A stretch of 46,048 bases of DNA from an uncultured SAR116 cluster alpha proteobacterium (lineage in GTDB: Bacteria; Pseudomonadota; Alphaproteobacteria; Puniceispirillales; Marisalimonadaceae), in contig CACAMV010000007.1 in assembly GCA_902533695.1 (NCBI GenBank), positions 1 through 46,048 of the forward strand. The letters run 5' to 3'. Both the position numbers and the translations under genes were made by a program. The stretch's first letter is position 1. Every line of letters starts with the position of its first letter. Shown piece after piece: positions 825 to 33,263 of the stretch. Below the pieces are notes generated by a model that saw only the letters and a list, made by a program, of their open reading frames with translations, searched no databases and had not been told where the DNA came from.

Positions 825-920
825 TTAACAAATACATAAAAATAATACATTTGAAACTTGATTATTATTTTTTTTTCGTCAATATCTTTTAAATCATATG
901 ACCTTCAGGAGGAGAAAATT
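825..920 (+). promoter_or_regulatory. Leader before the binding-protein gene, with strong RBS
   Basis: A 96-base gap separates benE from the binding-protein gene. It holds an unusually complete Shine-Dalgarno sequence, AGGAGGAG at 907-914, six bases before the ATG at 921. This decides that start over an in-frame upstream ATG at 858, which would put about 21 extra residues ahead of a normal signal peptide. A TTGAAA sits at 851-856 but has no convincing -10 box at the right spacing, so I do not call a promoter. Confidence 0.5.
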
Positions 921-2258: not shown

Positions 2259-2266
2259 ATAATATA

Positions 2267-2294
2267 GTTTAAGGGGGATTTACCCTCCTTAAAC
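2267..2294 (+). terminator. Intercistronic hairpin between binding-protein and permease genes
   Basis: Arms 2267-2277 and 2284-2294 can pair over 11 base pairs (one G-U) around a six-base loop, with a GC-rich upper stem in otherwise AT-rich DNA. There is no long T tract after it, only TCTTTAAAGTTTT, so it is more likely a partial terminator or 3' mRNA-stabilising stem than a full stop. Such stems after the binding-protein gene are common in ABC operons and keep the receptor in excess over the membrane subunits. Confidence 0.65.
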
Positions 2295-2312
2295 TCTTTA
2301 AAGTTTTAACAT

Positions 2313-4797: not shown

Positions 4798-4820
4798 TTG
4801 CGTGTTTGAGGATAAAGAAA

Positions 4821-5465
4821 ATGTTAAGTCTTACTAAAATTAATGTTGACATTGGTCCTGTAGGGATCTTAAAAAATGCAAGTTTAAATTTAGATCAAGG
4901 TAAAATGGTTGGATTGATAGGCAGAAATGGTGCTGGTAAAACAACATTATTAAAGACTATCATGGGTATTTTAAAAACTAAATCAGGTAATATTAAGTTT
5001 GATAAAAATGATTTAACAGATTTACCTTCTGAGAAAAGAGCTAATATGTTTATTGGGTATATGCCTGAAGACAGAAGACTAATTCCATCTATGTCTGCTG
5101 AAGAAAACATTATGATACCAGTTTGGGCTGTAAATATTGATGATTGGGAAGAAAGATTAAAATGGATTTACAAAATAATTCCAGAAGCAAATGAGTTAAA
5201 AAATAGACCTTCTACAAGCTTGTCTGGAGGGCAACAAAAATTAATAGCTTTATCTAGAGCTTTAATGGTTGGGAAAAAGTTGTTACTTCTTGATGAACCG
5301 ACAGAAGGTATTGCTCCTGCATTAACAAGAAGAATCATTGAGATTCTAAATAATTTAAAAAAAGAAGGTGTTACGACATTGGTCGCAGAGAGTAACGCAG
5401 GTCATTATGATAAAATGTTAGATAGAACATTTATTATTGAACGCGGAGAAATAAAAAAAAAATAA
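4821..5465 (+). CDS. livF: Branched-chain-type ABC ATPase LivF
   Basis: Second ATPase of the importer, 214 residues from the ATG at 4821. I prefer this start to an in-frame TTG at 4794 because MLSLTKINVDIG matches the usual LivF N-terminus and a GAGG lies about nine bases upstream. Walker A GRNGAGKTT is near residues 39-47, the signature is SLSGGQQKLIALSRAL, and Walker B is LLLLDEPTEGIAP, the last motif being typical of LivF. The region after Walker B reads VAESNAG where most ABC ATPases have an H-loop VEQN or VEHD, so the switch histidine appears to be Ser, a noticeable departure. It heterodimerises with LivG in the family. Confidence 0.9.
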   Translation: MLSLTKINVDIGPVGILKNASLNLDQGKMVGLIGRNGAGKTTLLKTIMGILKTKSGNIKFDKNDLTDLPSEKRANMFIGYMPEDRRLIPSMSAEENIMIPVWAVNIDDWEERLKWIYKIIPEANELKNRPSTSLSGGQQKLIALSRALMVGKKLLLLDEPTEGIAPALTRRIIEILNNLKKEGVTTLVAESNAGHYDKMLDRTFIIERGEIKKK

Positions 5466-5500: not shown

Positions 5501-6382
5501 TTGAAACCAAGTCCATTTAACTATGTTAATCCAGATACAATTGAAAAAGCACTTAATGCCTTATCAAAGCATAATAATGCAAAATTAATAGCTGGTGGTC
5601 AAACTTTAGTTCCTATGATGAATTTTAGGTTGTCCCAACCTGAGTTGTTAATCGACATTAGCAATATTAGTAAACTTAAAAATATTACTGAAGATAATAA
5701 ATATATTGAGATCGGATCACTCTTAACCCATTCGAACGCTATTAAATCTAATTGCTTAAAAAAATATTTTCCAATTATTTCAAAAGCAATAAGTAATGTT
5801 GCTCATCATACAATAAGAAATGAAGGTACAATTGGCGGAAGTATTGCAAACGCTGATCCAGCATCAGAATGGCCATTATTAGTCACTCTTTTAGAGAGTT
5901 TTATAAAAGTTCAAAATAAAAAGAAAAAAAGAAAAATTTTATATAAAGATTTTTTTGAAAGTCACTTCATAACTAATCTAAGGGATGATGAAATAATAAC
6001 ATCAATAATAATACCTAAAATCAAAAATTCTTACGGTTGGTCTTTCTTAGAAGAGGCACAAAGGGATGGAGACTTTGCTGTTGTTGAAGTAGCAACAATT
6101 ATTGAAATAGGAAAAAATAATTTAATTAAAAAAGCCCGTATTGCTATTGGTGGAGTAGATGAAAAAGTTATTAGATTAAAAAAAATTGAAAATTTATTAG
6201 TTGGTTTCAATCTTAGCGAAAATTTATGCAATTTTACAAAAAAAGATATAGATGACCAAATTAATCCAATTTCTGATAATCATAGTTCAATTGAATACAA
6301 AAAACATCTATCCTTTGTGTTAATAAAAAAAGCTATTAATACTGCAAAAGAACAAATTTTAAATGTTGAAGATGATAGATAA
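5501..6382 (+). CDS. Molybdenum hydroxylase FAD-binding subunit, set 1 (CoxM/CutM-like)
   Basis: Medium subunit of a xanthine-oxidase-family enzyme; it carries the FAD that passes electrons from the Fe-S subunit to an acceptor. The two FAD-binding signatures are visible: AGGQTLVPMMN at residues 31-41 and GTIGGSIANADPASE at 109-123. Translation starts at a TTG with AGG eight bases before it, giving MKPSPFNYVNP, the standard start of this family, so the TTG is credible. Only two cysteines occur, so the extra [4Fe-4S] insertion found in the HcrB subunit of 4-hydroxybenzoyl-CoA reductase is absent. It overlaps the small-subunit gene by 20 bases. Role as a subunit is firm; the enzyme's substrate is unknown. 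Confidence 0.92.
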   Translation: MKPSPFNYVNPDTIEKALNALSKHNNAKLIAGGQTLVPMMNFRLSQPELLIDISNISKLKNITEDNKYIEIGSLLTHSNAIKSNCLKKYFPIISKAISNVAHHTIRNEGTIGGSIANADPASEWPLLVTLLESFIKVQNKKKKRKILYKDFFESHFITNLRDDEIITSIIIPKIKNSYGWSFLEEAQRDGDFAVVEVATIIEIGKNNLIKKARIAIGGVDEKVIRLKKIENLLVGFNLSENLCNFTKKDIDDQINPISDNHSSIEYKKHLSFVLIKKAINTAKEQILNVEDDR

Positions 6383-6851
6383 AATTAAAATAGAAACGAC
6401 TGTAAATAATGTCAAATACTCTAAAAGAATTGAACCAAGGTTACTCGCATCAGATTTTATTAGAGAAAATTTACATTTAACTGGAACACATGTTGGATGT
6501 GAACATGGTGTGTGTGGATCTTGCACGATAAAAATAAATGGTTTAACTAGTAGATCATGTTTAAAGTTTGCAATACAACTGCATGGAAAAAGAGTTGAAA
6601 CAGTTGAAAGCTTTAGTTCTAATCCCCAAAAAAAGATAATCTTAGACACATTTAAAAAATTTCATGCACTTCAGTGCGGATTTTGTACACCTGGTTTTTT
6701 AATTACGGTTGATGAATTATTACAAACAGAGAATTTAGAAAACGAAAAAGAAATAAGAAAAGCCCTTTCAGGAAATCTTTGCAGGTGTACAGGATACGAA
6801 AATATAATTAAAGCTGTTTTAGAATTAAAAAATAATAGGAAAACAAAATGA
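6363..6851 (+). CDS. Molybdenum hydroxylase [2Fe-2S] subunit, set 1 (CoxS/CutS-like)
   Basis: Small electron-transfer subunit, 162 residues. The N-terminal plant-ferredoxin-type cluster is held by Cys46, Cys51, Cys54 and Cys66 (GCEHGVCGSC then C), and the C-terminal helical domain binds the second cluster through CGFC at 105-108 and CRC at 140-142. All eight ligands are present and spacing is standard. It overlaps the FAD subunit gene and ends in an ATGA overlap with the MBL-fold gene. Electrons from the Mo centre pass through both clusters to FAD in the medium subunit. Very similar to the set 2 copy at 12282, indicating paralogous complexes. Confidence 0.95.
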   Translation: MLKMIDKIKIETTVNNVKYSKRIEPRLLASDFIRENLHLTGTHVGCEHGVCGSCTIKINGLTSRSCLKFAIQLHGKRVETVESFSSNPQKKIILDTFKKFHALQCGFCTPGFLITVDELLQTENLENEKEIRKALSGNLCRCTGYENIIKAVLELKNNRKTK

Positions 6852-7606
6852 AATTATATTTCTTAAATTCTGGAAGAGTGGAAATGAAAAAAAAAATATT
6901 CATTCCTGATTTAAAGACTGATGAAAAATTTGAACTTCCCGTTATTTCTACTTACATTAATTACAAAAAAACAAATATACTTTTTGATACTGGTTGTCAC
7001 CCTTCAGTAGAAATAAATGCTGAAAAAAGATGGGGAGGTTTATCTAAAATCATGACACCAATAAATATGAATGGAAAAAATTTAATAACGGAACTTTCTA
7101 CTATCGGCATTTCTCCTAATGACATAGACATAGTTATAAATTCGCATTTGCATCCTGATCACTGCGGATGCAATGCATTTTTTAAAAATGCAGAATTTTA
7201 TTGTCACGAAAAAGAATTCCAAAGTGCTAATGAACCAAACGCAAGTCAAATGGGTTATATTAAAAATGAATGGGATTTACCTATGCCATTAAAACCAATA
7301 AAACAAAGTTATGATTTTTTTGACGATTCACGCATTGTAACTGTTAACTTACCAGGACACACCCCTGGTTCGATAGGTTTATTGGTCAATTTAAATCATA
7401 ATAAATTTTTAATTGCTTCAGATGCATTAAGTTTAGAAAGAAATTTGGATAGAGATGAAGTTCCTAAAAATGCATGGAATCCAAATCTACTCTTAAAGTC
7501 ATACAAAGAATTAATAAAAATTAAAAAATCTGGATCTACTATAGTTTGTGGGCACGATGAAGCTCAATGGAAAAATAAATTAGAAATGGGAATAAATTAT
7601 AAATAA
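6848..7606 (+). CDS. MBL-fold metallohydrolase (AHL-lactonase-like), inside Mo-hydroxylase set 1
   Basis: Metallo-beta-lactamase-fold hydrolase of 252 residues. The di-zinc motif HLHPDH is at residues 100-105, a further metal His follows in LPGHTPGS, and the bridging Asp in IASDAL and a late CGHDEAQW His complete the set. The pattern is that of N-acyl-homoserine-lactone hydrolases, but nothing around it suggests quorum signalling. It is locked into the operon: ATGA overlap with the Fe-S subunit and an immediately adjacent ATG for the Mo subunit. I infer a catabolic role, for example opening a lactone or thioester formed downstream of the hydroxylase. A second, distant MBL hydrolase of the same superfamily lies at 37207-38028. 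Confidence 0.85.
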   Translation: MKLYFLNSGRVEMKKKIFIPDLKTDEKFELPVISTYINYKKTNILFDTGCHPSVEINAEKRWGGLSKIMTPINMNGKNLITELSTIGISPNDIDIVINSHLHPDHCGCNAFFKNAEFYCHEKEFQSANEPNASQMGYIKNEWDLPMPLKPIKQSYDFFDDSRIVTVNLPGHTPGSIGLLVNLNHNKFLIASDALSLERNLDRDEVPKNAWNPNLLLKSYKELIKIKKSGSTIVCGHDEAQWKNKLEMGINYK

Positions 7607-9976
7607 ATGCAGAAAAAATCTCAAAAATATGTTGGTAAGAATGTATTAAGATTTGAAGATGAAAGATTGTTATCGGGAAATGGAGTTTATACTTCTGATT
7701 TAAAATTCTCAAGTCTACTCCATTTATCTTTTCTTAGAAGCAATATAGCCCATGGTAAGATCGTTTCTATAAATAAAGAAAAAGCAGAAGAAATAGAAGG
7801 CATTCATGGAGTATTTACTTACGAAAATTTTAAAGAAGTCCCGCCAATAAAATCAACCTCTAGGATGAAAAATTATTTTGCAACTAATCAGAATGTTTTG
7901 TGTTCCGATAAAATTAGATACGTTGGAGAACCTTTAGCTGTAGTTGTGGCAGAAAATAGATACATTGCAGAAGACGCCGCAGAACTTATTGAAGTTGAAG
8001 TTAAAAATTTAGACCCTGTGATTGATACCTTAGAGGCAACAAAACCTTACTCAGAAATTTTACATAATGAAATAAAATCAAATGTAATCTTAGAAAGAAA
8101 TTTCAACACTGGTGATAAAAATTTTTTACATGATAAAGATCTCTTAAGCGTTAAAAATATTTTTAGGATGACAAGAAAATCTCCTATTTCCATGGAAACT
8201 AGAAGTTATGTTTGTAATATTGATAAATTAACAAAAATTTTAACCTTATATTCTTCTACACAAGTCCCTGGCGTAATTAAAGATGCACTTAGCTTGTTTT
8301 TAAAAATACCTGGAAATAAATTAAACGTAATCGCTCCGGATGTTGGCGGAGGGTTTGGTGGGAAAGCTTCTTTGTACCCTGAAGAAATTATAACTGTACT
8401 ATTATGTCAAAGATTTAACAGACCAATAAAATGGGTATCAGATCGATTTGAAGACTTTATGTCAACTAGCCAAGGGTTTGAAGAAGTGATGGAGGTTGAA
8501 TTATTTTTTAAACCAACAGGACAATTCATAGGCTTATATGGGAAGATAATTGGAGATGTTGGGTCTTATTCAATTTATCCATGGACTGCGGCACTAGAAC
8601 CTATGCAAGTCGCTGGTTTTTTGCAAGGTCCATACAAGATTGACAACTTTAATGCAAATGTTAAATGTGTTGTCACTAATAAACCTCCAACAGGACCTTA
8701 TAGAGGAGTAGGAAGACCTGCTGCTGTATTTGCAATTGAAAGATTGATTGATATGGCTGCAAAAAAATTAAAAACTGATCCAGCAAAATTACGATTACAG
8801 AACATGATAGACAAAAAAGATTTACCTTACAGGATTGGCTCTGGCATCGTTTGGGACAATGCTGGATTTAAAGAATGTTTAAAGTCAGCTTTAAGAATAA
8901 GTAAATATGAAAAATTTAGAAGAATAAAAAATAATGAAAATTCAAATTGGCTAGGAATTGGTATTGCATCTTATGGAGAGTTAACCGGTATAGGTTCTAA
9001 AATATCTGTTGCGCCTGGGATGCCACTTAATACAGGAACAGAAACATGTATAATTGAAATAGATTCGACTGGGAGTATTTCTGCAACTTTTGCAATAGCC
9101 TCGCATGGACAAGGCTTAGAGACTACACTAGCACAAATAATAGCAGAAACTTTAGGATCAAAACCTGATGACATTAAAATTAATCAAGGCAATACATCTT
9201 TAATAAAGCATGGCACAGGTACCTATGCAAGCAGGAGTGCTGCTATAGCTGGAAGTGTAGCTATCAAATCTACAAAAAAATTAAAGAATCAAATAATGAA
9301 AATTGCGTCTTACATTTTTGAAACAACTAAAAAAAATATTCATATTAATGATGGTTTTATATTTCAAAAAGATACAAACAAAAAAATAAGCTTTTATGAT
9401 TTAGCAAAAGCTGTTTATTCTGATATGGAAACATTACCAATAAAATTAAGAAAACCTCTTGTTGCTACTGAAACCTACGATCCTATTTTTGGTGCAACTA
9501 CTACTGCTACACACATTGCAATTGTAGAAGTAAATCCAGAAACGTATAAAATAAAAATTAAGGACTACATAGTTTCTGAAGATTGTGGAAAAGTAATTAA
9601 CCCAATGATAGTTGATGGTCAAGTTCAAGGTGGAGTCGCACAAGGGATTGGAGCTGCACTTTATGAAGAATTAAAATATGATGAAGCCGGTCAATTAAAA
9701 ACAGCTACATTGGCAGATTATTTAATACCCACATCTTCTGAAGTACCTAATATTAAAATTGAACATATTGAAAATTTTCTACCAGATAATCTTGGTAAAT
9801 TTAAAGGCATGGGAGAAGGTGGAACAATTGGCGCAACGGCTGCAATAGCAAATGCAGTTAGCGACGCGATATCACATTTAAATATTGAAATAACTGAACT
9901 TCCAATTTCACAAGATAAATTATATAATTTAATAAATACTGGAGAAAACCAAAATGAACTTAAATTTGGAAAATAA
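7607..9976 (+). CDS. Molybdenum hydroxylase large (molybdopterin) subunit, set 1
   Basis: Catalytic subunit of 789 residues that binds molybdopterin cytosine dinucleotide in this family and hydroxylates carbon centres with water. Visible are the N-terminal hammerhead region, the GGGFGGK Mo-cofactor loop near residue 248, the active-site loop GPYRGVGRP at 363-371 (Arg366), and the catalytic-base glutamate Glu737 in MGEGGTIG. The loop is of the form II, AYRGAGR-like type, not the AYxCSFR of true CO dehydrogenase, so a CO substrate is not supported. It follows the MBL gene with no gap, and its end overlaps the SDR by 23 bases. Substrate unknown; context suggests an aromatic or N-heteroaromatic ring. 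Confidence 0.93.
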   Translation: MQKKSQKYVGKNVLRFEDERLLSGNGVYTSDLKFSSLLHLSFLRSNIAHGKIVSINKEKAEEIEGIHGVFTYENFKEVPPIKSTSRMKNYFATNQNVLCSDKIRYVGEPLAVVVAENRYIAEDAAELIEVEVKNLDPVIDTLEATKPYSEILHNEIKSNVILERNFNTGDKNFLHDKDLLSVKNIFRMTRKSPISMETRSYVCNIDKLTKILTLYSSTQVPGVIKDALSLFLKIPGNKLNVIAPDVGGGFGGKASLYPEEIITVLLCQRFNRPIKWVSDRFEDFMSTSQGFEEVMEVELFFKPTGQFIGLYGKIIGDVGSYSIYPWTAALEPMQVAGFLQGPYKIDNFNANVKCVVTNKPPTGPYRGVGRPAAVFAIERLIDMAAKKLKTDPAKLRLQNMIDKKDLPYRIGSGIVWDNAGFKECLKSALRISKYEKFRRIKNNENSNWLGIGIASYGELTGIGSKISVAPGMPLNTGTETCIIEIDSTGSISATFAIASHGQGLETTLAQIIAETLGSKPDDIKINQGNTSLIKHGTGTYASRSAAIAGSVAIKSTKKLKNQIMKIASYIFETTKKNIHINDGFIFQKDTNKKISFYDLAKAVYSDMETLPIKLRKPLVATETYDPIFGATTTATHIAIVEVNPETYKIKIKDYIVSEDCGKVINPMIVDGQVQGGVAQGIGAALYEELKYDEAGQLKTATLADYLIPTSSEVPNIKIEHIENFLPDNLGKFKGMGEGGTIGATAAIANAVSDAISHLNIEITELPISQDKLYNLINTGENQNELKFGK

Positions 9977-10709
9977 AGTTGCTCTTGTTACTGGAGGAGG
10001 AAGAGACATAGGAAAACTAATCTCCTTACATTTAGCATCTGAGAAAATAAGTGTAGCAGTAAACTACAACTCTTCACCAAAAGAAGCAGAGGAAACAGTA
10101 TCAACTATTAAAAAACTTGGTGGTAACGCAAAGGCTTATAAGGGAGATATTTCTAATTATGATGAAATAAAAAACACTATAGAAATGATTAATAAGGATT
10201 TTGGTGAGATTGACTTTTTAATTAATAATGCTGGCTATACTAGAATAGAAAGATTTTTTGAATCTAAACCAGAAGAATGGGACAAACAAATTGATATCTG
10301 CCTTAAAGGATCTATAAACTGCTGTCATTTAGTTATTGAAAAAATGATAGCAAAAAAGCATGGAAGAATTATTAATATTGTAGGAGATAGTTCAAGAATA
10401 GGAGAAGCAAATTTAGCAATAACAGCTGCGGCTAGAGGTGGAACAATAGCATTGGGAAAATCACTAGCAAAAGAACTTGGAAGGTATGCTATAACTGTTA
10501 ACACTATCTCTTTAGGTTTGGTTAAAACAACACACTCAAATAACGAATTCTTAGAAAAAAATATGGATAAAATTTTAAAATCTTATCCTTTGAAGAGAAT
10601 TGGAGAGGCAGATGATGTGGCCCCAATGGTTACATTTTTATGTTCCAGCAACGCAAATTGGATTACAGGTCAAGTGATCAGTATAAATGGTGGATTCTGC
10701 ATGGTATAA
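9954..10709 (+). CDS. Short-chain dehydrogenase fold protein lacking the catalytic Tyr and Lys
   Basis: SDR-fold protein of 251 residues. The cofactor motif TGGGRDIG is at residues 13-20 and NNAG lies near 90, with a normal C-terminal SINGGF. The catalytic YxxxK is missing: the aligned stretch reads ITAAARGG, putting Thr157 in place of Tyr and Arg161 in place of Lys. The codons (ACA and AGA) are unambiguous in the sequence. NAD(P) binding should survive, but classical SDR oxidoreduction is doubtful, so it may use different chemistry (a lyase, isomerase or decarboxylase-like role) or act as a structural partner. It sits between the Mo subunit and a CoA ligase, so it probably works on a CoA or acid intermediate. 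Confidence 0.88.
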   Translation: MNLNLENKVALVTGGGRDIGKLISLHLASEKISVAVNYNSSPKEAEETVSTIKKLGGNAKAYKGDISNYDEIKNTIEMINKDFGEIDFLINNAGYTRIERFFESKPEEWDKQIDICLKGSINCCHLVIEKMIAKKHGRIINIVGDSSRIGEANLAITAAARGGTIALGKSLAKELGRYAITVNTISLGLVKTTHSNNEFLEKNMDKILKSYPLKRIGEADDVAPMVTFLCSSNANWITGQVISINGGFCMV

Positions 10710-10733
10710 AATTTCAATTTAAAGGATTAAAAA

Positions 10734-12275
10734 ATGATACATAAAGAAGTCATAAAACCTATAAATTATTTATTAGAAAAGCAAGCCAGTGATCTAAACA
10801 ATAAACTAGCTTTTTCTGATCAAACTGAAGATATAACATATAAACAATTAAATTTAGAGACTGCTAACTTAGCAAAGTGTTTTAAAAACTTTAATATTAA
10901 TGCTGGCGATTCTATAGCTGTAATTTTACCTAATTCAGTTAATTGGATTGTTTCATGTTTTTCAATTCTCAGATTAGGCTGCGTGGTAGTCCCAATCAGC
11001 TTTGACTCAACTTTTTCTGAAATAGAATATAAAATACTAGATGCTTCTTGCAAGCTAATAATTACTTCTGAAAAATTTAAAAATCAACTTGATCAATTTA
11101 TTTCTAATAAAAGTTTGTCAATTCAAATTATATATACTGAAGACATAGGAAATTCTGAACATTGTTTAAAAGCTCTTAGAAGTACAAAGAACAATGATTA
11201 CTCTATAAATGACGATAATATAGATCTTCCTGGATATATTTTGTATACATCCGGTACGACTGGTCAGCCAAAGGGCGTGGTTTTATCTTCAAGAAGCATG
11301 CTCTGGATTGTTGCTAGCTGTTGCATGCCTATTATTGGTCTTAATAAAAAAGATTTGGTTCTCTCTCCCTTACCTTTATTTCATTCTTATGCATTGAATT
11401 TATGTGTTCTTGGTGTTTTAGCGTCTGGTGCCACAGAGTATTTACTAGAAAAATTTTCTCCAAAAATGATTTTTGAGCAGTCTACAATAAAACCTTACTC
11501 ACTACTTCCAGGTGTGCCTACAATGTTTCACTATTTGTTAGCAACTGCAAAAAAAGAAAACCTAAGAATAAAAAACATAAACAGATGTGTTTCCGCAGGT
11601 GCAATTATGCCATTACAATTAAACAAAGAATTTGAAGAGTTTTTTAAAATAGAACTTTTAGATGGATATGGAATAACTGAAACATCAACATTTGTTACCA
11701 TGAATTGGCCTGGACAAAATAGAACCATGGGTTCTTGCGGTCTAGCATTACCTGGTTTAGGCGTAAGGATTATAAACCCTGACAATAATAAAGATGTTAA
11801 CCCAAATCAAGAAGGAGAATTAATTTGCAGGGGACCGAATGTAATGCAGGGATATCATAATAAACCTGAAGAAACAAAAAAAGTTTTAAAAGATGGTTGG
11901 TACTACACTGGAGATTTAGCAAAACAAGATGAAAATGGTTTTTTAACTATAACTGGAAGATTAAAAGAAATTATTATTAGAGGTGGTCAAAATATATCCC
12001 CTACAGAAATAGAAGAAGCTATATTAAAAAATGAAAAAGTATTGGATTGTGCTGTTGTTGGATTGCCTCACGATCAATTGGGAGAAATACCTGGAGCTTT
12101 TGTAATACTAAAGGAAGGATATAAATTAGATAAAAAAAATATAATTGATCAATGCAAAGAATTAATTTCTGATTATAAAGTTCCTGAAATAATTATTCAA
12201 ACTGATAACATCCCTAGAACGGGATCGGGTAAAACCATGAGATACAAATTAATTCAATCATATAAAAATAATTAA
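10734..12275 (+). CDS. AMP-forming acyl/aryl-CoA ligase 1
   Basis: Adenylate-forming (ANL) ligase of 513 residues that would activate a carboxylate to its CoA thioester using ATP. Motifs in order: YTSGTTGQPKG from Tyr171, LPLFHSY, a DGYGITET loop, YYTGDLAKQDENGF, the hinge and A8 loop GRLKEIIIRGGQNISP, and the catalytic lysine Lys500 in RTGSGKT. All key residues are present and length is normal. An AAAGGA ribosome site precedes the ATG. It lies 24 bases after the SDR and six before the second Fe-S subunit gene. The acyl pocket cannot be read with confidence: it looks closer to fatty/medium-chain ligases than the second ligase does, but context favours an aromatic or ring-cleavage acid. Confidence 0.9.
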   Translation: MIHKEVIKPINYLLEKQASDLNNKLAFSDQTEDITYKQLNLETANLAKCFKNFNINAGDSIAVILPNSVNWIVSCFSILRLGCVVVPISFDSTFSEIEYKILDASCKLIITSEKFKNQLDQFISNKSLSIQIIYTEDIGNSEHCLKALRSTKNNDYSINDDNIDLPGYILYTSGTTGQPKGVVLSSRSMLWIVASCCMPIIGLNKKDLVLSPLPLFHSYALNLCVLGVLASGATEYLLEKFSPKMIFEQSTIKPYSLLPGVPTMFHYLLATAKKENLRIKNINRCVSAGAIMPLQLNKEFEEFFKIELLDGYGITETSTFVTMNWPGQNRTMGSCGLALPGLGVRIINPDNNKDVNPNQEGELICRGPNVMQGYHNKPEETKKVLKDGWYYTGDLAKQDENGFLTITGRLKEIIIRGGQNISPTEIEEAILKNEKVLDCAVVGLPHDQLGEIPGAFVILKEGYKLDKKNIIDQCKELISDYKVPEIIIQTDNIPRTGSGKTMRYKLIQSYKNN

Positions 12276-12281
12276 TTTCTA

Positions 12282-12785
12282 ATGAAATTTTATAATTCAA
12301 AAAATAAAATAAACATTAAATTCAAACTAAACGATAAGATTATTGAAAAAGAAGTTGAACCAAGATTATTACTAAGTGACTTTTTAAGATATAATTGTGG
12401 TCAAACAGGAACACATGTTGGTTGTGAGCATGGGATATGTGGCGCATGTACTATTTTATTCAATGAACAACCCATAAGGTCGTGTTTAATGTTAGCTGCA
12501 CAAATTAGAGATAGTGAAATACTTACCATTGAAGGTGTAGCAAATGACAGCAAATATAAGGATTTAAGAGAAGCTTTCAAAAAACATCATGCACTTCAAT
12601 GCGGATTTTGTACACCTGGTTTTTTTATAACAATAATTTCAATATTAAATGAAAATGTTTATTACGATGAGGAAGATTTAAGAGAAAAACTAAGTGGAAA
12701 TATATGTAGATGCACCGGTTACACAGGTATTATTTTAGCAGTTTCTGAAGTTATTAAGAAAAGACATTCAAAAGAATTGATATAA
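12282..12785 (+). CDS. Molybdenum hydroxylase [2Fe-2S] subunit, set 2 (CoxS-like)
   Basis: Small subunit of the second Mo-hydroxylase, 167 residues. Cluster ligands are Cys48, Cys53, Cys56 and Cys68 for the ferredoxin-type domain, and CGFC at 107-110 plus CRC at 142-144 for the helical domain, all intact. It is the only unassigned small subunit in the window, so it presumably partners the Mo subunit at 17016 and the FAD subunit at 19966, although four genes separate them. Its stop codon overlaps by one base the ATG of the second CoA ligase, implying coupled translation with that ligase. Closely similar to the set 1 small subunit over the conserved Cys regions, consistent with duplication of a whole complex. 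Confidence 0.93.
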   Translation: MKFYNSKNKINIKFKLNDKIIEKEVEPRLLLSDFLRYNCGQTGTHVGCEHGICGACTILFNEQPIRSCLMLAAQIRDSEILTIEGVANDSKYKDLREAFKKHHALQCGFCTPGFFITIISILNENVYYDEEDLREKLSGNICRCTGYTGIILAVSEVIKKRHSKELI

Positions 12786-14314
12786 TGTTTGATTTAGGCA
12801 CTTCATTTATAGCATCTGTAAGAAGAGACCCCTCTTCTATAGCAATATCTTACAAAGAAAAGAGTTTGTCTTACGCAGATTGGTTTAAGAAAATTTCAAA
12901 TTTATCAGGTTCATTACTTAAATTAGGAATGAAAAAAGGTGATAAAATTTTAACCATATTGCAAAATAATTTTGAAGCTTGCACTGTACATTGGGCTTGC
13001 CAAATTATTGGTATAACCATAGTTCCAATTAATTGGCGAGCTAAAACAAAGGATATAGATTTTTTTTTAAAAGATTCAGAAGCTAGATTGATTATATACG
13101 AAGAATTTAGTAGTGAAGATGTAAAATTATCAAAAAATGCAAAAAATTTGATAAAAATTTCTGTCAATTCAAAAATTGAGGACTGTATCAATTTTGAAGA
13201 ATTGCTTTTGAATTTTCATGAACTTGATTGTTCTTATTCACTTCCTGAAGATATTTCTTTAATTTTATATACATCAGGAACTACAGGAAACCCTAAAGGT
13301 GTACCAAGAACACATTTGGCTGAAAGAACTTCGGCAATTGCTCATGTGGTGCAAAATTATTACGAAAGATACGAGTCTACACTTGGTGTCATGCCTTTAT
13401 ATCACACGATGGGTGTACGGTCTCTAATAGCAATGAGTTTAATAAACGGTAGGTTTGTTGCCCAACCTAAATTTTCTACTGAAGAAACCATAAACTTGAT
13501 TAATAGATATAAAATAACATCTTTGTATCTAGTTCCAACCTTATATCATGAACTAATAGAATCTACTCACTTCAAAAAAGAAGAAGTTATGTCCTGTAAA
13601 AAATTAGGTTTTGCTGGAGCATCAATGACAGACGGTTTAATAAAAAAAATTAAAAATAACTTTTCTGCGATACAACTAATAAATCATTATGGGTCCTCCG
13701 AGATATATACATTTACAATTGAACAAGATGCTTTCAATAAACCTGGCTCCGCAGGAAAAGCTGGATTAAATCAAATAATTAGAGTTGTTAAAATCAATTC
13801 AAATAACCCAAACGCATTAACTAAAGTTGATGAAGAAGGTGAAATCATAGCAAATATAATTAGTGAAGAAGCATTTCAGGGGTATTTAAAAAGACCAGAA
13901 GCAACTAAAAAATCAATAATTGATGGTTGGTATTTTACTAGAGATACAGGATATTTAAACAAAGATGGTGATCTATTTGTGACTGGAAGAGTAGATGATA
14001 TGATAATTTCAGGAGGTGAAAACGTTTCTCCTGTTGAAATTGAAAATGTTTTGTCTCTGCATAAAAATGTCCTTGAGGTAGTAGTAGTCGGTTTAAATGA
14101 CGAAAAATGGGGTCAAAAAATATGTGCTTTTATTAAAAGTGATTCTAAAATTGATACAAAATCTCTTGATGAACATTGCAAAAAATCAACACTTTCAAAT
14201 TTCAAAAGACCTCGTTCATATTTTTTTATTAAAGAAATACCTAAATCACCTACTGGAAAAATTTTAAGAAGGAAAATTGTTTCAGGCGAATATGAACTAG
14301 ACAATTTTAACTAA
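12785..14314 (+). CDS. AMP-forming aryl-CoA ligase 2 (4-chlorobenzoate/4-hydroxybenzoate-CoA ligase-like)
   Basis: ANL ligase of 509 residues. Motifs: YTSGTTGNPKG from Tyr162, MPLYHTMG with His207, HYGSSEI, WYFTRDTGYLN (Arg where most have Gly, Asp kept), GRVDDMIISGGENVSP around residue 409, and catalytic Lys492 in SPTGKILRR. The C-terminal domain, with GRVDDMIISGGEN followed by WGQK and FKRPRSYF, closely follows the pattern I know for 4-chlorobenzoate:CoA ligase, whose histidine after PLY helps shape the aryl pocket. I therefore infer a benzoate-type or heteroaromatic acid substrate. One-base overlap with the set 2 Fe-S gene places it in the same translational unit. Function as a CoA ligase is strong; the exact acid is not known. 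Confidence 0.9.
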   Translation: MFDLGTSFIASVRRDPSSIAISYKEKSLSYADWFKKISNLSGSLLKLGMKKGDKILTILQNNFEACTVHWACQIIGITIVPINWRAKTKDIDFFLKDSEARLIIYEEFSSEDVKLSKNAKNLIKISVNSKIEDCINFEELLLNFHELDCSYSLPEDISLILYTSGTTGNPKGVPRTHLAERTSAIAHVVQNYYERYESTLGVMPLYHTMGVRSLIAMSLINGRFVAQPKFSTEETINLINRYKITSLYLVPTLYHELIESTHFKKEEVMSCKKLGFAGASMTDGLIKKIKNNFSAIQLINHYGSSEIYTFTIEQDAFNKPGSAGKAGLNQIIRVVKINSNNPNALTKVDEEGEIIANIISEEAFQGYLKRPEATKKSIIDGWYFTRDTGYLNKDGDLFVTGRVDDMIISGGENVSPVEIENVLSLHKNVLEVVVVGLNDEKWGQKICAFIKSDSKIDTKSLDEHCKKSTLSNFKRPRSYFFIKEIPKSPTGKILRRKIVSGEYELDNFN

Positions 14315-14332
14315 TTATACCATTATCAAAGC

Positions 14333-14719
14333 ATGAAAAATAAACCACATATAGAATTTGAATTTGTTTCTGACACTGATGGTTGGGAAACACCATCAGG
14401 TTATCCTTCAGGAATAAAGCAAAAAATACTTGCATCTGATTTAAATGAAGAAGAAAAGACAGGCAGCAGATCAAGGTTATTAAGATTTGATCCTGGCGTT
14501 TATACTACAAAACCATTTGTCCATGATCATTGGGAAGAAGTTTTTCTCGTAAAAGGTGATCTCATAGTTGGAAATGATAAAAATGGTAACGGTGGTAAAA
14601 AATTTGATAAATCTACATTTGCATGTAGACCTCCAGGTGTCTACCACGGACCATTTAAATCCGACAATGGATGCACATTATTTGAACTACATTACTATAA
14701 AAGTGACAAAAATTTCTAG
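14333..14719 (+). CDS. Cupin-domain protein
   Basis: Small single-domain cupin, 128 residues. The metal motif is visible as HDHWEEVFLVKGD, giving two His and a Glu, and a second cupin motif lies near PPGVYHGPF, whose His would be the fourth ligand. The pattern resembles ChrR-type cupins, a group containing both metal-binding enzymes and small-molecule sensors. There is no DNA-binding domain, so a direct regulator is unlikely. It sits two bases upstream of the HpaB-type monooxygenase gene, so it may act on that enzyme's product, for example as a ring-modifying or isomerising enzyme. That role is inference from position only. Confidence 0.8.
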   Translation: MKNKPHIEFEFVSDTDGWETPSGYPSGIKQKILASDLNEEEKTGSRSRLLRFDPGVYTTKPFVHDHWEEVFLVKGDLIVGNDKNGNGGKKFDKSTFACRPPGVYHGPFKSDNGCTLFELHYYKSDKNF

Positions 14720-14721
14720 TT

Positions 14722-16197
14722 ATGATTAAAACCGGCAAAGAACATCTTGAACAAATACGTGATGGTAGAACTGTATATATAGGTGATGAAAAAATAAAGG
14801 ATGTCACCAAACACCCTGCTTTTTCAAGGGCTGCGCGAACAGTTTCTCAACTTTATGACCTAAAACATCAAACTGAATTTAAAGAGGATTTGACTTACAA
14901 AGAAAACGGCGAAGAATACTCTACTTGGTTTATTCAAGCAAAAAACAAGAACGACTTGAGGAAACGTTCTAAAGCCCATAAAATTATAGCTGATCATACA
15001 AGTGGAATGATGGGTCGTTCAATGGATCATGTAGCAAGTTTTGTTACTGGAATGTCCACTAGCCCTGAAATTTTTAATAATGATAATTATAAATTCAGTG
15101 AAAACCTTTTAAACTATTATCAACATATGAAAAATAATGATATTTTTGCTTCATATGCGGTTGTTCCTCCTCAAGCTGCAAGAAACCCTGAATTCTATCA
15201 AAAAAGAAATTTACCAATACCTACATTGTCTGTAGTAGATGAAAATGATAAAGGTGTTGTCATTTCGGGAATGAAAATGCTTGCTACCAGTGCTGTTTTT
15301 GCCAATGAAATTTGGATTGGAAATTTAATACCCTTAGCCCCAGATCAAGTTAAACAATCAATAACTTGTACTATACCCTGTAATGTTGAAGGTCTAACTC
15401 TATGGATGAGGCAACCTTTATCAAATCATTATGACAATCAATTTGACGCACCTTTATCTTGGAACCAGGATGAAACTGATGTGTTGGTTATGTGTGATAA
15501 TGTTTTAGTTCCATGGGAAAAAGTTTTTGTAATGAACGATGCTATTCAAGCTAGAGAAATTTATTTCAAAACACCAGCACACTGTTACGGCAACCATCAA
15601 TCAAATGTGCGATACTGGTCAAAAATGGAGTTAATAGTTGGTTTATGTTCAAAAGTTGCAAAAGCTACAGGAGCAGATGAAGTGCCAGCAGTTAGAGAAA
15701 CTTTAGGTAAGATGTCAGCATTAGAAGCAACATTATCTGGAATGATTTTTGGTCAAATTGAAAAAGCTGAAGATTGGCCTAAAAATTACAAAACTTTTAA
15801 TAGAAGAATAATGTATGCTGCATTAAATTTTTGTACAGATAATTACTCAATGATTATTGATGAATTAAGAACCTTATGTGGCGGTGGAGTTTTTCAAATG
15901 CCTGCTAGTGTTAAAGTAATGAATAATAAAGAACTTATTGAAGATTTTGAAAAATACTTTCAAACCCCGCAAATGAATGCAATTAATAGAATGAAACTTT
16001 TTAAATTAGCCTGGGATGTAGTTGGATCAGAGTTTGCAGGAAGACAGCTTCAATATGAAAAGTTTTATGCGGGAGCGTCCTTTATAATAAGAAACCATAA
16101 CTTCAGAGAAACACCTTGGGAAGATTTTGAGTCAGTTGTCGATAAGGTAATGGATAAATACGATATTCCTAACAAAACTAATAAAGCTGCTGAATAA
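14722..16197 (+). CDS. 4-hydroxyphenylacetate 3-monooxygenase (HpaB) family oxygenase component
   Basis: FADH2-dependent monooxygenase of 491 residues with the family layout: an N-terminal GKEHLEQIRDGRTVYIG, KDVTKHPAF, a middle FAD-binding barrel with DNVLVPWEKVF, and the C-terminal four-helix domain with MKLFKLAWDVVGSEFAGR. Residues known as catalytic in HpaB (Arg, Tyr, His; R100, Y104, H142 in Thermus) align to Arg99, His103 and Tyr145, so the Arg is kept but the Tyr and His positions carry His and Tyr. This suggests a subfamily with a different substrate. It is not 4-hydroxybutyryl-CoA dehydratase: the Fe-S cysteines are missing there. No flavin reductase partner (HpaC) lies in the window. 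Probably ortho-hydroxylates a ring formed by the operon's earlier steps. Confidence 0.88.
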   Translation: MIKTGKEHLEQIRDGRTVYIGDEKIKDVTKHPAFSRAARTVSQLYDLKHQTEFKEDLTYKENGEEYSTWFIQAKNKNDLRKRSKAHKIIADHTSGMMGRSMDHVASFVTGMSTSPEIFNNDNYKFSENLLNYYQHMKNNDIFASYAVVPPQAARNPEFYQKRNLPIPTLSVVDENDKGVVISGMKMLATSAVFANEIWIGNLIPLAPDQVKQSITCTIPCNVEGLTLWMRQPLSNHYDNQFDAPLSWNQDETDVLVMCDNVLVPWEKVFVMNDAIQAREIYFKTPAHCYGNHQSNVRYWSKMELIVGLCSKVAKATGADEVPAVRETLGKMSALEATLSGMIFGQIEKAEDWPKNYKTFNRRIMYAALNFCTDNYSMIIDELRTLCGGGVFQMPASVKVMNNKELIEDFEKYFQTPQMNAINRMKLFKLAWDVVGSEFAGRQLQYEKFYAGASFIIRNHNFRETPWEDFESVVDKVMDKYDIPNKTNKAAE

Positions 16198-16229
16198 TTA
16201 ATTCGTAGAAGTTGGTATGGAGATTTTTT

Positions 16230-17009
16230 TTGAAAGTTCAAAAATTTGATGGATTTAGATTAGAAATAAATAAGGAAAAAAAGAGAGCAGACTTAGTGCT
16301 TTCTAGACCACCTCTAAACGTAGTTTTGTTTTCTCAGAGGTCAGAAATGGCCAAATTATTAATAGAATTGGACCAAAATGATGATGTTCGGGTAATTGTA
16401 TTAAGATCAGATGGAGACAATTTTTCTTCTGGAGGAAACATATCTGGTTTTATGGAAGAAACGCCTGAGGATCTTACTTTGCTAGCGCAAAATGTAATGA
16501 CACCAGAAAAATTAAAAAAACCAGTTATTGCGGCCATACAAGGTTACTGTTTTGGTGTTGGTTTTGAGTTTGCACTCGCGTGTGATTTTAGAATTGTTAC
16601 TTTTGATTCTCAATTATCATTACCCGAAATGAAAATAGGTATGATACCTGGGTCTGGTGGTTCCGCAAGACTGGCAAAAATGATTGGTATATCTAGGTCA
16701 AAAAATATTATCATGAGAGGCAAAAGATTATCAGGTGAAGAAGCATTCAATTTAGGGATAGCCTGTGAGGTAGTTAAAAAAGAAAATCTTGACAAAAGCA
16801 CTCAAAGCTTAGTTGATGAATTAATTAATGTTTCACCACTTGCGCAAAGAACAATAAAGTCAGTATTAAATTCTACTCAAAACTCTACATTACATACTTC
16901 TATTGAATTAGAGGGTGAAGCATACGGTCGACTAAGAAGTTCAAATGACTTTAAGGAGGGTGTAGAAAGTTTTTCTGAAAAAAGAAACCCTAAATACACT
17001 GGATCTTAA
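16230..17009 (+). CDS. Enoyl-CoA hydratase/isomerase (crotonase) family protein
   Basis: Crotonase-fold enzyme of 259 residues. I start it at the TTG at 16230, giving MKVQKFDGFRLEI, because GGAG at 16219-16222 lies eight bases upstream; an earlier in-frame TTG at 16212 has no such site. The oxyanion-hole segments SSGGNISGF and GYCFGVGFEFALACDF are present, as is LPEMKIGMIPGSGGSARL, whose PE glutamate and glycine loop are typical of catalytic members. The C-terminal ESFSEKRNPKYTG is the usual trimer-contact tail. It follows HpaB and precedes the Mo subunit of set 2, so it probably hydrates or cleaves an unsaturated or ring-derived CoA ester. The exact reaction (hydratase, hydrolase, lyase) cannot be told. 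Confidence 0.88.
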   Translation: MKVQKFDGFRLEINKEKKRADLVLSRPPLNVVLFSQRSEMAKLLIELDQNDDVRVIVLRSDGDNFSSGGNISGFMEETPEDLTLLAQNVMTPEKLKKPVIAAIQGYCFGVGFEFALACDFRIVTFDSQLSLPEMKIGMIPGSGGSARLAKMIGISRSKNIIMRGKRLSGEEAFNLGIACEVVKKENLDKSTQSLVDELINVSPLAQRTIKSVLNSTQNSTLHTSIELEGEAYGRLRSSNDFKEGVESFSEKRNPKYTGS

Positions 17010-17015
17010 AAAACA

Positions 17016-19985
17016 ATGGATACCGTTAAAGTTGCAAACTGTTATGTCGGAAGTAATGTTCATAGAAAAGAAGATGATAAATTAATTAGTGGAAAAGGAC
17101 AATTCGGTGCTGACCTGGCGATTCCAACAGATTCACTTCACGTTGCTGTTTTAAGATCTGATCATGCATCAGCAATAATAAAAAAAATAAATTTAGAAAA
17201 CGCAATTAATTTAGAAGGTGTCCATTCAATATTAACTGGAAGAGATTTTAGCAAAATATCAAACCCCCTTTTATCAGTTATTAGAACTGATTTTCAATCA
17301 TGGTGTTGTGCAATTGATCAAGTAAAGTACGTAGGGGAACCAATCGCATTAATCCTAGCAGAAAACAGATACATAGCAGAAGATGCAATTGATTTGATTG
17401 AAGTTGAATATTCTATAGACAAACCAATTATAGATATTAAGGAAGCTATTAAAACAAAATCAACATTTGTTCATACTGTTACAAAAAGTAATGTTGTTAG
17501 TGATAGATACTTTGAATATGGAAACCCAAAAAAATATTTTAATAATTCATCTAAACAAGTGGCAATAGAAATCACCTACCCTAGAAATAGCTGTACCCCT
17601 TTGGAAGGTTTTGTTGTTCATAGCTATTATGACCATGATGATGAAACTTATACAGTACAATCTAATTTTCAAGGACCTTATAGCCTTCATTCTGTTTTAT
17701 CAAGAGCTCTAAAAACTGATGAAGGTAAATTAAGATTAATATCAATTAATGATTCAGGTGGAAGTTTTGGAATAAAACAAGCAATTATGCCTATGATAAT
17801 TTTAACTAGTTTGGCATCAAAAATAACAAAAAAAAATATAGTTTGGATTGAAGATAGAATAGAACATCTAACAGCAGCTTCTTCAGCTACTGGTCGTTTG
17901 ACCAAGATAAAAGCATCAGTTTCAAATGATGGTTTAATAAATGCAATTGACTATGATCAAGTAGATGATGTAGGGGCTTATTTAAGAGCTCCAGAACCAG
18001 CTTCATTATATAGAATGCATGGCAATTTAAGTGGTCCCTATATAGTAAAGAATATTAGTTGTAGAAACAGAGTAATTGTCACAAACAAAACTCCAAGTGG
18101 TTTAAATAGAGGTTTTGGAGGACCTCAACATTATTTTGCACTTGAGAGATTAATAAAAAAAATTGCAGATGAACTAAAACTTGATCACTTAGATGTCATT
18201 ACAAAAAATATTTTAAATAAGGATCAATTTCCATATAAATCTCCTGCGGGAGCCATTTTAGATTCTGGAAATTATAAAAAATTAATAGAAAAAGTTAAAA
18301 AATCAGATACATACAAAAAAATATTAAATCAAAAAAAACAATCCTTAAAAAAAGGTATGTTATATGGAATTGGATATTCAGCAATTATTGAACCTTCAAT
18401 TTCTAATATGGGCTATATCACTACAGCTCTTCCCTACATAGAACGAGAAAAATCTGGTCATAAAGGAGGAGCTTTAGCATCATCTTCAGTCTCTATTGGA
18501 CCAACTGGAAGTGTTTATGTTTCGTGTGATAGCATTCCACAGGGTCAAGGTCACAAAACTGTTCTTAGCCAAGTAGTAGCAGATATTTTTTCATTAAACC
18601 CTAATGATATAATAGTTAACACTACCTTAGATACACAAAAGGATCCATGGTCAATTGCTGCTGGAAATTATTCTAGTCGTTTTGCAGGTGCAGTCGCAGG
18701 AACTACATCTATAGCAGCAAAAAAATTAAAAAAAAGACTTATTAAAATTGCTTCTTCCAAACTAAATTGTAAGTCAGAGAATATCAAATTTATAGATGGA
18801 AGAATATCAGATAAAAATAATTCTCAGAATAATATATCATTTAAACGGTTAGCTGGAATATCTCATTGGTCACCAGGTGAAATTCCAGAAGAAATGGAAC
18901 AAGGATTACGAGAAGTAGCCTTTTGGTCAGATGAAGAAATAAAACCTCCAAATGAGAAAGATGAAATAAATGGATCACTTGTATACGGGTTCGTGTTCGA
19001 TGTATGCGGAATAGAAATTGATCCAAGCACATCTTCTATGAAAATAGACAAATATATAACAGGACATGATGCTGGCAAAATTCTTAATCCTTTACTTGCA
19101 GATGGACAAATTTATGGAGCTTATGCTCATGCGGTTGGAGCATCAACTATAGAAGAATTTAGATATGAAAAAGATGGTTCGTTTTTGTCAGGTTCATTTC
19201 AAGATTATCTATTACCCTCAAGCAAAGAAATAAATCAACCCGAGATTATACACATTGAGACTCCTAGCCCACTTACACCACTTGGTTCAAAAGGTCTAGG
19301 AGAAGGCAATTGTATGTCTACTCCGGTCGCAATAGCAAATGCCTTTTCAGATGCAACAGGTTTAAACAACGTAACACTACCACTAACTAAATCAAAAATT
19401 CATAATTATTTAAATCTTAAAGAAAAAGAAATTAAACCAAAATTTGTAAATAAAAATTTGTCCTTAAAAACTGATTATCCGATTTCGGGTTCAGATAATG
19501 TTTTAATAAATATGAATAAAAGTATCCTTTGGAAAAATTTGTTAGATGTAAAATCTCTTAAAGATATTATTCCTGGATGTAAAAATATTAAATTAATTAA
19601 AAAGAATACTTATTTAGGCATTATAAATATAAAGATTGGTCCAATAAAAGGTGAATACAAATTTGTTGTTGAATTAACAAATATAAAAAATGAAAAATCA
19701 TTAACATTAAAGGGAAAAGCTTTAGGAAAACTTGGTCGTGGAAATGGAGAAGGTTCTTTAAATTTGACAGAAGTTGGTAGTAAAATAAATATTTCTTACT
19801 CATATGCCGCTAATGTAAATGGAAAAATATCAATAGTAGGAAACAGATTATTAAATTCAGCATCTAAAATAATTATAAATCAATTTTTTAATTCTTTTTT
19901 AAAAATAAAAAAGCCAAAGAAAACTTCAATGCTAAACTATATTAAAATTAAATTAGGTATAATTAATGAAACCCCCTCCATTTGA
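17016..19985 (+). CDS. Molybdenum hydroxylase large subunit fused to a CoxG-like domain, set 2
   Basis: Catalytic Mo subunit of 989 residues, about 200 longer than the set 1 copy. Residues 1-800 are the molybdopterin part: SGGSFGIKQA cofactor loop near 248, active-site loop GLNRGFGGPQ at 362-371 (Arg365, closer to the xanthine dehydrogenase RGFGGPQ form than to CO dehydrogenase), and catalytic Glu763 in GLGEGNC. From about residue 825 to 970 there is a separate domain with LLDVKSLKDIIPGCKNI, IKIGPIKGEYKF and AANVNGKISIVGNRLL, which match CoxG (SRPBCC fold, cofactor delivery or membrane anchoring in CO dehydrogenase systems). The last segment is Lys-rich. It overlaps the FAD subunit gene by 20 bases. 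The fusion is seen directly; the role of the extra domain is inferred. Confidence 0.92.
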   Translation: MDTVKVANCYVGSNVHRKEDDKLISGKGQFGADLAIPTDSLHVAVLRSDHASAIIKKINLENAINLEGVHSILTGRDFSKISNPLLSVIRTDFQSWCCAIDQVKYVGEPIALILAENRYIAEDAIDLIEVEYSIDKPIIDIKEAIKTKSTFVHTVTKSNVVSDRYFEYGNPKKYFNNSSKQVAIEITYPRNSCTPLEGFVVHSYYDHDDETYTVQSNFQGPYSLHSVLSRALKTDEGKLRLISINDSGGSFGIKQAIMPMIILTSLASKITKKNIVWIEDRIEHLTAASSATGRLTKIKASVSNDGLINAIDYDQVDDVGAYLRAPEPASLYRMHGNLSGPYIVKNISCRNRVIVTNKTPSGLNRGFGGPQHYFALERLIKKIADELKLDHLDVITKNILNKDQFPYKSPAGAILDSGNYKKLIEKVKKSDTYKKILNQKKQSLKKGMLYGIGYSAIIEPSISNMGYITTALPYIEREKSGHKGGALASSSVSIGPTGSVYVSCDSIPQGQGHKTVLSQVVADIFSLNPNDIIVNTTLDTQKDPWSIAAGNYSSRFAGAVAGTTSIAAKKLKKRLIKIASSKLNCKSENIKFIDGRISDKNNSQNNISFKRLAGISHWSPGEIPEEMEQGLREVAFWSDEEIKPPNEKDEINGSLVYGFVFDVCGIEIDPSTSSMKIDKYITGHDAGKILNPLLADGQIYGAYAHAVGASTIEEFRYEKDGSFLSGSFQDYLLPSSKEINQPEIIHIETPSPLTPLGSKGLGEGNCMSTPVAIANAFSDATGLNNVTLPLTKSKIHNYLNLKEKEIKPKFVNKNLSLKTDYPISGSDNVLINMNKSILWKNLLDVKSLKDIIPGCKNIKLIKKNTYLGIINIKIGPIKGEYKFVVELTNIKNEKSLTLKGKALGKLGRGNGEGSLNLTEVGSKINISYSYAANVNGKISIVGNRLLNSASKIIINQFFNSFLKIKKPKKTSMLNYIKIKLGIINETPSI

Positions 19986-20793
19986 TTACGTCCAAGTTAA
20001 AACAATCGATGAAGCTTTATCAATTCTTAATGATTATGGCGATGATGCACAAATTATTGCAGGAGGACAATCAATAGTATCAATGTTGAATATGAGATTG
20101 ATAAAGCCCAAAATTATAATTGACATTAACTTTTTAAAAAATAGCTCATATATAATTTCTAAAAATAAATCTATTTTTATTGGACCTACTTACCGACAAC
20201 TTGATTTAGAAAAAAGAAAAAACACACAACACGATTTACCTTTACTTTCAGAAGCAATTTCATTTGTTGGACACATGCAACATAGGGCAAGAGGTACAGT
20301 TATCGGTTCAATATGTCATGGTGATCCTACATCAGAATTACCACTTTGTTTTTTAGCGTTAAAAGGTAAAATTACTCTAAGAAACAAATTAAGAAAACGT
20401 AAAGTTAATGCCTCTGACTTTTACCTTGGTCCGTTGATTACAACAAAAGAACCAAACGAAATAGCTACTGAAATAGAGTTTCCTGCTTCCCAAAAAAAAA
20501 CTGGCTATGCCTTTAAAGAAATTTCAGAAAAATTTGGTGATTTTGCCATAGCATCATTTGCTGCTGTAATAAACAAAGATAAAATTAGGTTTGCTGTTGG
20601 AGGAGTCTCAGGCAAACCTATAGCAACAGAATGGGAAAATAAAAAACATATTAACTTAGACGACAAACTCAATGAGTTTTCATGTAACATAGATATTTTG
20701 GATAATCAGCACACATCGGCAAAATATAAAAGAGATTTGGTAAGAAAAATAGGATTAAAAACTATAGTAAAAGCTATTGAAAGATCTGAATAA
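19966..20793 (+). CDS. Molybdenum hydroxylase FAD-binding subunit, set 2 (CoxM-like)
   Basis: Medium subunit of the second complex, 275 residues. FAD motifs are AGGQSIVSMLNMRL at about residues 32-45 and GTVIGSICHGDPTSELP near 108-124. In the second motif the usual TIGGS is TVIGS, so one glycine of the pair contacting the FAD pyrophosphate is Ile; the fold otherwise looks normal. The MKPPPFDYVQ start is standard. It overlaps the Mo-CoxG fusion gene by 20 bases and is the last gene of the long plus-strand operon, so it and the preceding gene are surely co-translated. It would complete the set 2 complex with the Fe-S subunit at 12282. Confidence 0.92.
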   Translation: MKPPPFDYVQVKTIDEALSILNDYGDDAQIIAGGQSIVSMLNMRLIKPKIIIDINFLKNSSYIISKNKSIFIGPTYRQLDLEKRKNTQHDLPLLSEAISFVGHMQHRARGTVIGSICHGDPTSELPLCFLALKGKITLRNKLRKRKVNASDFYLGPLITTKEPNEIATEIEFPASQKKTGYAFKEISEKFGDFAIASFAAVINKDKIRFAVGGVSGKPIATEWENKKHINLDDKLNEFSCNIDILDNQHTSAKYKRDLVRKIGLKTIVKAIERSE

Positions 20794-30120: not shown

Positions 30121-30123
30121 AAA

Positions 30124-31149: not shown

Positions 31150-31151
31150 TT

Positions 31152-33248: not shown

Positions 33249-33263
33249 ATTTAGACCCAATCA

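Follow-up and report, generated by a model that had tools for sequence, protein, structure and literature searches.

A probable furan-carboxylate catabolic operon with an optional molybdenum hydroxylase cassette and an inserted cupin-HpaB pair in SAR116 bacteria

Results

Gene content of the locus

The DNA analyzed here (the window) is a stretch of 46,048 nucleotides from an uncultured SAR116 (Puniceispirillales) alphaproteobacterium, and it lies on contig 7 of a genome of 1.15 Mb that is 60% complete. All genes listed below between 5501 and 20793 are intact open reading frames on the plus strand, with junctions of -23 to +35 bp. Pfam searches identified two complete molybdenum (Mo) hydroxylase sets, two AMP-forming ligases, an HpaB, a cupin, a crotonase, an SDR and an MBL-fold protein, with BenE and a five-gene Liv-type ABC importer upstream of this catabolic block. 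The gene content listed in an earlier note on this DNA is thus borne out; that description did not include the CoxG domain at the C-terminus of the second Mo subunit (17016-19985). The features are as follows.

3..824, plus strand: BenE-type transporter, cut by the contig start (PF03594)
858..5465, plus strand: Liv-type ABC importer with binding protein, two permeases and two ATPases (Pfam)
5501..6382, plus strand: cassette, FAD subunit of Mo hydroxylase 1 (PF00941/PF03450)
6363..6851, plus strand: cassette, 2Fe-2S subunit of Mo hydroxylase 1 (PF01799)
6848..7606, plus strand: cassette, MBL-fold lactonase-like hydrolase, AHL-lactonase/AttM relative (PF00753)
7607..9976, plus strand: cassette, molybdopterin subunit 1, MoL1 (domains, active-site loop, tree)
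9954..10709, plus strand: cassette, SDR, FabG-like (PF13561)
10734..12275, plus strand: cassette, AMP-forming acyl-CoA ligase A (PF00501)
12282..12785, plus strand: HmfC-like 2Fe-2S subunit of furoyl-CoA dehydrogenase (PF01799)
12785..14314, plus strand: HmfD-like furoyl-CoA synthetase, ligase B (identity to HmfD)
14333..14719, plus strand: cupin, predicted cupin fold (weak ChrR-like Pfam match)
14722..16197, plus strand: HpaB-family flavin monooxygenase of a divergent cupin-linked clade (PF11794/PF03241)
16212..17009, plus strand: HmfE-like crotonase, 2-oxoglutaryl-CoA hydrolase candidate (identity to HmfE)
17016..19985, plus strand: HmfA-like molybdopterin subunit, MoL2, fused to CoxG (domains, identity, tree)
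19966..20793, plus strand: HmfB-like FAD subunit (PF00941)

Judged from sequence comparisons, the block from 5501 to 20793 is made up of three putative modules, namely a furoate-type core, a six-gene cassette and a cupin-HpaB pair, rather than a single undescribed pathway.

Other genes lie nearby. Between 21067 and 25132, an epoxide-hydrolase-like gene was seen in the window's own genus only, while the DHDPS-family, 114-aa, MaoC and Zn-ADH genes adjoin the operon in two SAR116 genera and were not seen in the third. A putative second catabolic block at 28888-46014 encodes MFS, Zn-ADH, 3-hydroxyacyl-CoA dehydrogenase, nitronate monooxygenase, PhyH, a DRL-type oxidoreductase, an MBL protein, an aldo-keto reductase and a class II aldolase. 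In another SAR116 genus (g2; loci L063, L064, L065 and L066), the FAD gene is followed by genes for an AMP ligase, an alpha/beta hydrolase and a crotonase-domain protein, which are absent from that position in the window.

A probable furoate-type core

The active-site loops of the two Mo subunits read GPYRGVGR and GLNRGFGG, and neither contains AYxCSFR, the active-site loop of form I aerobic CO dehydrogenase. The two FAD subunits scored 86.7 and 43 bits on TIGR03195, the model for the beta subunit of 4-hydroxybenzoyl-CoA reductase, against a cut-off of 404.55. While the CoxL-like and CoxG-like domains might point to an operon for either enzyme, the form I loop is absent and the models for both enzymes fall far below their cut-offs, so this explanation is refuted at the sequence level and we give it next to no chance. 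The earlier note had excluded CO dehydrogenase and argued against the reductase on its own grounds, and both judgments hold. Its "benzoate-type" ligase found no support, since neither ligase is specific to that type; ligase A scored 257 on TIGR02262 against a cut-off of 375 and its best model is a generic subfamily.

One transcription unit contains homologues of all five products of hmfABCDE, the furoate operon described in Cupriavidus basilensis HMF14 and P. pseudoalcaligenes (PMC6678421, PMC6604932), at 12282-14314 and 16212-20793. Within the collections searched, the Hmf assignment rests on syntenic loci with UbiD/UbiX/GMC genes, which stood in for the characterized C. basilensis and P. putida Hmf proteins. 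In the reference plasmid loci, genes for a Mo-CoxG protein, an FAD subunit, a 2Fe-2S subunit, an AMP ligase and an enoyl-CoA hydratase form a single row. In Burkholderia aenigmatica and Caballeronia Lep1P3, UbiD and UbiX genes border one end of this row and a GMC oxidoreductase gene the other. In these reference loci both UbiD and UbiX exceed their subfamily cut-offs. The furandicarboxylate decarboxylase genes HmfF/HmfG are of the UbiD/UbiX type. HmfH is a GMC oxidoreductase and HmfF/HmfG constitute the furandicarboxylate decarboxylase (PMC6604932).

The similarity to these hmf-type loci extends to each of the five proteins. The HmfA-like subunit is 44-46% identical to HmfA and the HmfB-like subunit 39-42% identical to HmfB. 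Ligase B is 50-53% identical to HmfD compared with 27-28% to other ligases, and the crotonase at 16212..17009 is 52-58% identical to HmfE compared with 28% to another crotonase. For the HmfC-like subunit, the values are 45-54% overall and 49-54% where it is the best match in the window; since the cassette 2Fe-2S subunit is the better match to HmfC in two of the hmf-type loci, identity to HmfC does not discriminate. The MoL1 and MoL2 families share at most about 33% identity, and in a phylogenetic tree MoL2 grouped with the HmfA proteins, in a clade that had full SH-aLRT support. The fusion of the Mo subunit to CoxG is likewise common to SAR116 and to hmf-type loci, being present in all five HmfA proteins checked.

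Transporters are shared with some of these loci as well. BenE comes after the hmf-type row in Paracoccus yeei and Rhizobium TCK, whereas a Liv importer takes this place in Dinoroseobacter shibae and Azospirillum. The P. pseudoalcaligenes furoate locus also has BenE (PMC6678421). The SAR116 operon differs from the described one in its permuted order, its 39-58% identity, the extra cupin-HpaB pair and the optional six-gene cassette; its block contains no HmfFGH genes, and HpaB and cupin are foreign to described furoate operons. The order of hmfABCDE is reported to be highly conserved (PMC6604932), yet the order found in SAR116 is C-D-[cupin-HpaB]-E-A-B and not A-B-C-D-E. We regard the A-B-C-D-E order as a typical and not a defining trait of a furoate module. 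The core operon is kept in three SAR116 genera, so that the gene order is conserved in marine relatives, which the earlier note had set as a check on its proposal.

From the gene content, similarity, order and conservation observed in these genomes, we strongly infer a function in 2-furoate catabolism, and the core is quite probably a furan-carboxylate catabolic operon. At 39-58% identity to hmf-type loci, however, the substrate could also have shifted, for instance to pyrrole-2- or thiophene-2-carboxylate.

The substrate and every step of the following route are predictions from these similarities. Mo hydroxylases take the hydroxyl group from water. BenE, the Liv importer or both would take up 2-furoate or a close five-ring analogue, and ligase B would form the CoA thioester. 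The HmfABC-like Mo enzyme (17016-20793 and 12282-12785) would then place a water-derived hydroxyl on C5, and the product would tautomerize to a lactone and open. The HmfE-like crotonase would finally hydrolyze 2-oxoglutaryl-CoA to 2-oxoglutarate, which would enter the TCA cycle. The described furoate route likewise runs through CoA activation, C5 hydroxylation, lactone opening and thioester hydrolysis to 2-oxoglutarate (PMC6678421, PMC6604932).

An optional six-gene cassette

The cassette (5501-12275) has the order FAD, 2Fe-2S, MBL, Mo, SDR and ligase A, and it occupies a single slot between LivF and the HmfC-like gene. It is present at this slot in nine SAR116 genomes (G000, G001, G004, G007, G020, G022, G027 and G028, with G002 counted by its cassette Mo gene) and absent from seven (G006, G010, G012, G016, G017, G018 and G055). 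In the seven cassette-free loci, no more than about 75 bp separate LivF from the HmfC-like gene, and the remainder is intact as far as the contigs extend. The sequence reads through the slot itself in these loci, whereas absence from the whole genome is a weaker statement because most of the genomes are incomplete. Identities to the window for MoL1 and MoL2 are 82 and 79%, 66 and 67%, and 61 and 61%. Since cassette and core diverge in step, the data suggest an old cassette that was lost several times more than one gained recently.

A module with all six genes in an identical order is found on two Aminobacter plasmids (pANY103b and pSR7), where the proteins are 40-60% identical and a Liv importer is also present. 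The Aminobacter module adds CoxG, crotonase, Fe-ADH, thioesterase and SSADH genes, and hmf genes are absent at the locus. MoL1 of SAR116 and Aminobacter formed one clade in the tree, and ligase A is 52% identical to the Aminobacter cassette ligase compared with 27% to HmfD. We found no described function for the six-gene module. In an unrelated alphaproteobacterial family (f71), three genomes have FAD-FeS-MoL1-SDR directly 3' of hmfABCDE. Loci L145, L146 and L148, from one alphaproteobacterial genus, have this succession of hmfABCDE and FAD-2Fe-2S-MoL1-SDR, which makes a furan-type locus with two Mo enzymes in an order unlike that of SAR116.

These distributions bear on the earlier interpretation of the block as one undescribed linear pathway, in which a ring carboxylate would undergo two successive Mo hydroxylations, an HpaB hydroxylation and ring opening. 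The tight plus-strand gene block is consistent with such a pathway, as is the linkage of the cassette core to hmf genes in a second lineage. However, since the cassette is missing from its slot in seven relatives that have the operon, the two Mo enzymes do not form one obligatory pathway, and the second Mo set belongs to a dispensable cassette. In Aminobacter, moreover, no hmf genes accompany the cassette at its locus, and one Mo set with a ligase and the crotonase matches hmfABCDE, which is by itself a complete described route. The single linear pathway is therefore largely refuted and very unlikely. What the sequences do favor from the same proposal is its more general part, the CoA-dependent breakdown of an imported ring carboxylate, which we judge to be right; as the ring acid, a five-membered heteroaromatic one is a better fit than one with a six-membered ring.

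The cassette can thus occur apart from the furoate core, although in two lineages it is linked to that core. This favors a peripheral role, directed at a related compound, and suggests that the cassette feeds or widens furan catabolism. As a separate optional module, its Mo enzyme and SDR may oxidize another furan-like or O-heterocyclic compound; ligase A and the lactonase-like hydrolase would act with them, and the compound would be degraded in parallel or channeled into the furoate route.

It is also possible, at somewhat less than an even chance, that the cassette is an upper pathway in which the SDR and Mo enzyme oxidize a furan alcohol and aldehyde to furoate for the hmf-type module. This explanation applies to the cassette alone and does not conflict with a furoate core. 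The three f71 genomes argue for it, because what lies 3' of their hmfABCDE includes neither ligase nor lactonase, and the best NCBIfam models for the cassette subunits are those of glyceraldehyde (aldehyde) dehydrogenase, although below cut-off. On the other hand, the second Mo set also ranks best or second best on these aldehyde-type models, so the scores discriminate little, and the SAR116 and Aminobacter cassettes carry a ligase and a lactonase-like gene that aldehyde oxidation would not need.

The MBL protein scored 118.6 bits on NF045700, below the curated lactonase cut-off of 390. It has the HxHxDH metal motif as HLHPDH, and all aligned orthologues have HxHPDH; by family and metal motif, it is plausibly a lactonase. 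Lactone hydrolysis in furoate catabolism has no assigned gene (PMC6678421). We considered the MBL protein for this missing step, and the idea was weakened by the cassette-free operons. The gene is missing both from cassette-free SAR116 operons and from the hmf-type loci that were examined, and the furoate core therefore does not need it.

The cupin-HpaB pair

Both HpaB_N and HpaB domains were detected in 14722..16197. The nearest named relatives, 86-94% identical over the matched part, belong for the most part to SAR116 single-cell genomes and MAGs. Outside the SAR116 family loci, the most similar HpaBs are 68-70% identical; one (TMED23) is beside DUF2848, dienelactone hydrolase and ligase genes, and the other (G377) is near DUF2848 and a cupin. 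Within SAR116, the cupin-HpaB pair has diverged less than most genes of the core; in one genus (g3), HpaB is 87% identical compared with 66-67% for MoL2.

Arg100, Tyr104 and His142 are functional pocket residues of HpaB 4-hydroxyphenylacetate hydroxylase. Compared with 4-hydroxyphenylacetate 3-hydroxylase HpaB (PDB 2yyk), the family domains are shared over nearly the full length and Arg100 is retained, whereas in every cupin-linked HpaB aligned, Tyr104 is replaced by His and His142 by Tyr. The His is retained in a Sulfitobacter HpaB whose gene adjoins that of a ring-cleavage dioxygenase. Since these pocket residues are changed in the cupin-linked clade, a phenol is an unlikely substrate for the SAR116 HpaB. 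4-Hydroxybutyryl-CoA dehydratase was considered and rejected: that enzyme has Cys ligands of a [4Fe-4S] cluster, whereas there is no Cys in residues 88-112 here, and the PDB match was 4.8e-20 compared with 3.3e-63 for HpaB.

For the cupin, a PDB fold search returned acetylacetone dioxygenase first and then many generic cupins with poor superposition, which makes it a weak guide to function. One flavin reductase gene was found elsewhere in the window's incomplete genome.

More distant HpaBs, 34-35% identical, are found with flavin reductase, amidase, DUF2848 and Liv genes. In these clusters from Thioclava, Roseateles and Caballeronia, the cupin is 58-64% identical and the HpaB has the same pocket signature, but the SAR116 operon contains no amidase, DUF2848 or reductase genes. 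The set of flavin reductase, HpaB, cupin, amidase and DUF2848 with Liv genes is conserved in Alpha- and Betaproteobacteria (L038, 8454-12993; L100, 7443-13110; L037, 8439-14224), and we found no described substrate for it. A literature search on the HpaB-cupin cluster, DUF2848 and marine furoate catabolism yielded nothing useful. Homarine was considered but set aside, as the papers covered gave no help, and a comparison with the riboflavin-catabolism cluster did not help either.

These clusters are relevant to an alternative in which the HmfABCDE-like module acts on pyrrole- or thiophene-2-carboxylate, HpaB is a pyrrole-2-carboxylate-type monooxygenase and several five-ring acids enter through shared importers. 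Pyrrole-2-carboxylate monooxygenase is a two-component enzyme of flavoenzyme group D, which also includes 4-hydroxyphenylacetate 3-hydroxylase (PMC6165268), and the association of cupin-linked HpaBs elsewhere with flavin reductase, amidase, DUF2848 and a Liv importer would fit a lactam-opening route. Against this, the SAR116 operon has no amidase, and DUF2848 had zero matches across 15 SAR116 genomes, in a search that had no working positive control and does not demonstrate absence. We consider this alternative unlikely. If the core acts on furoate, as we favor, the HpaB-cupin pair would be an inserted third module that probably uses O2 to hydroxylate the ring of a related heteroaromatic acid.

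Discussion

The core represents a known kind of module, hmfABCDE, in a new setting, SAR116, and in a new arrangement. Tentatively, and with less than even confidence, we propose that the whole is an undescribed extended furan-acid system, in which a furoate core would be joined by an O2-dependent HpaB-cupin step and by a loss-prone cassette, common to SAR116 and Aminobacter, that would degrade a second O-heterocycle by a CoA-dependent route not yet described. The Mo-linked lactonase-like gene of the cassette would be a candidate for the type of lactone-opening step that has no assigned gene in furoate catabolism (PMC6678421). Two clade-wide SAR116 genome studies do not mention furans, aromatics or benzoate (PMC12262181, PMC8547437). 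No account of furan catabolism in SAR116 turned up in the part of the literature covered, though an earlier one may exist.

The window's genome (G000), at 60% completeness, has six MoCoBD_2 matches on contigs C2, C7, C47 and C48, and counts of "CO oxidation genes" may include such paralogues. CoxL/CoxG-like genes in SAR116 may be miscounted as genes for CO oxidation. SAR116 is among the most abundant bacterial groups of the surface ocean. If the furoate-type operon is what it appears to be, furan acids would be a likely dissolved-carbon substrate in the open ocean.
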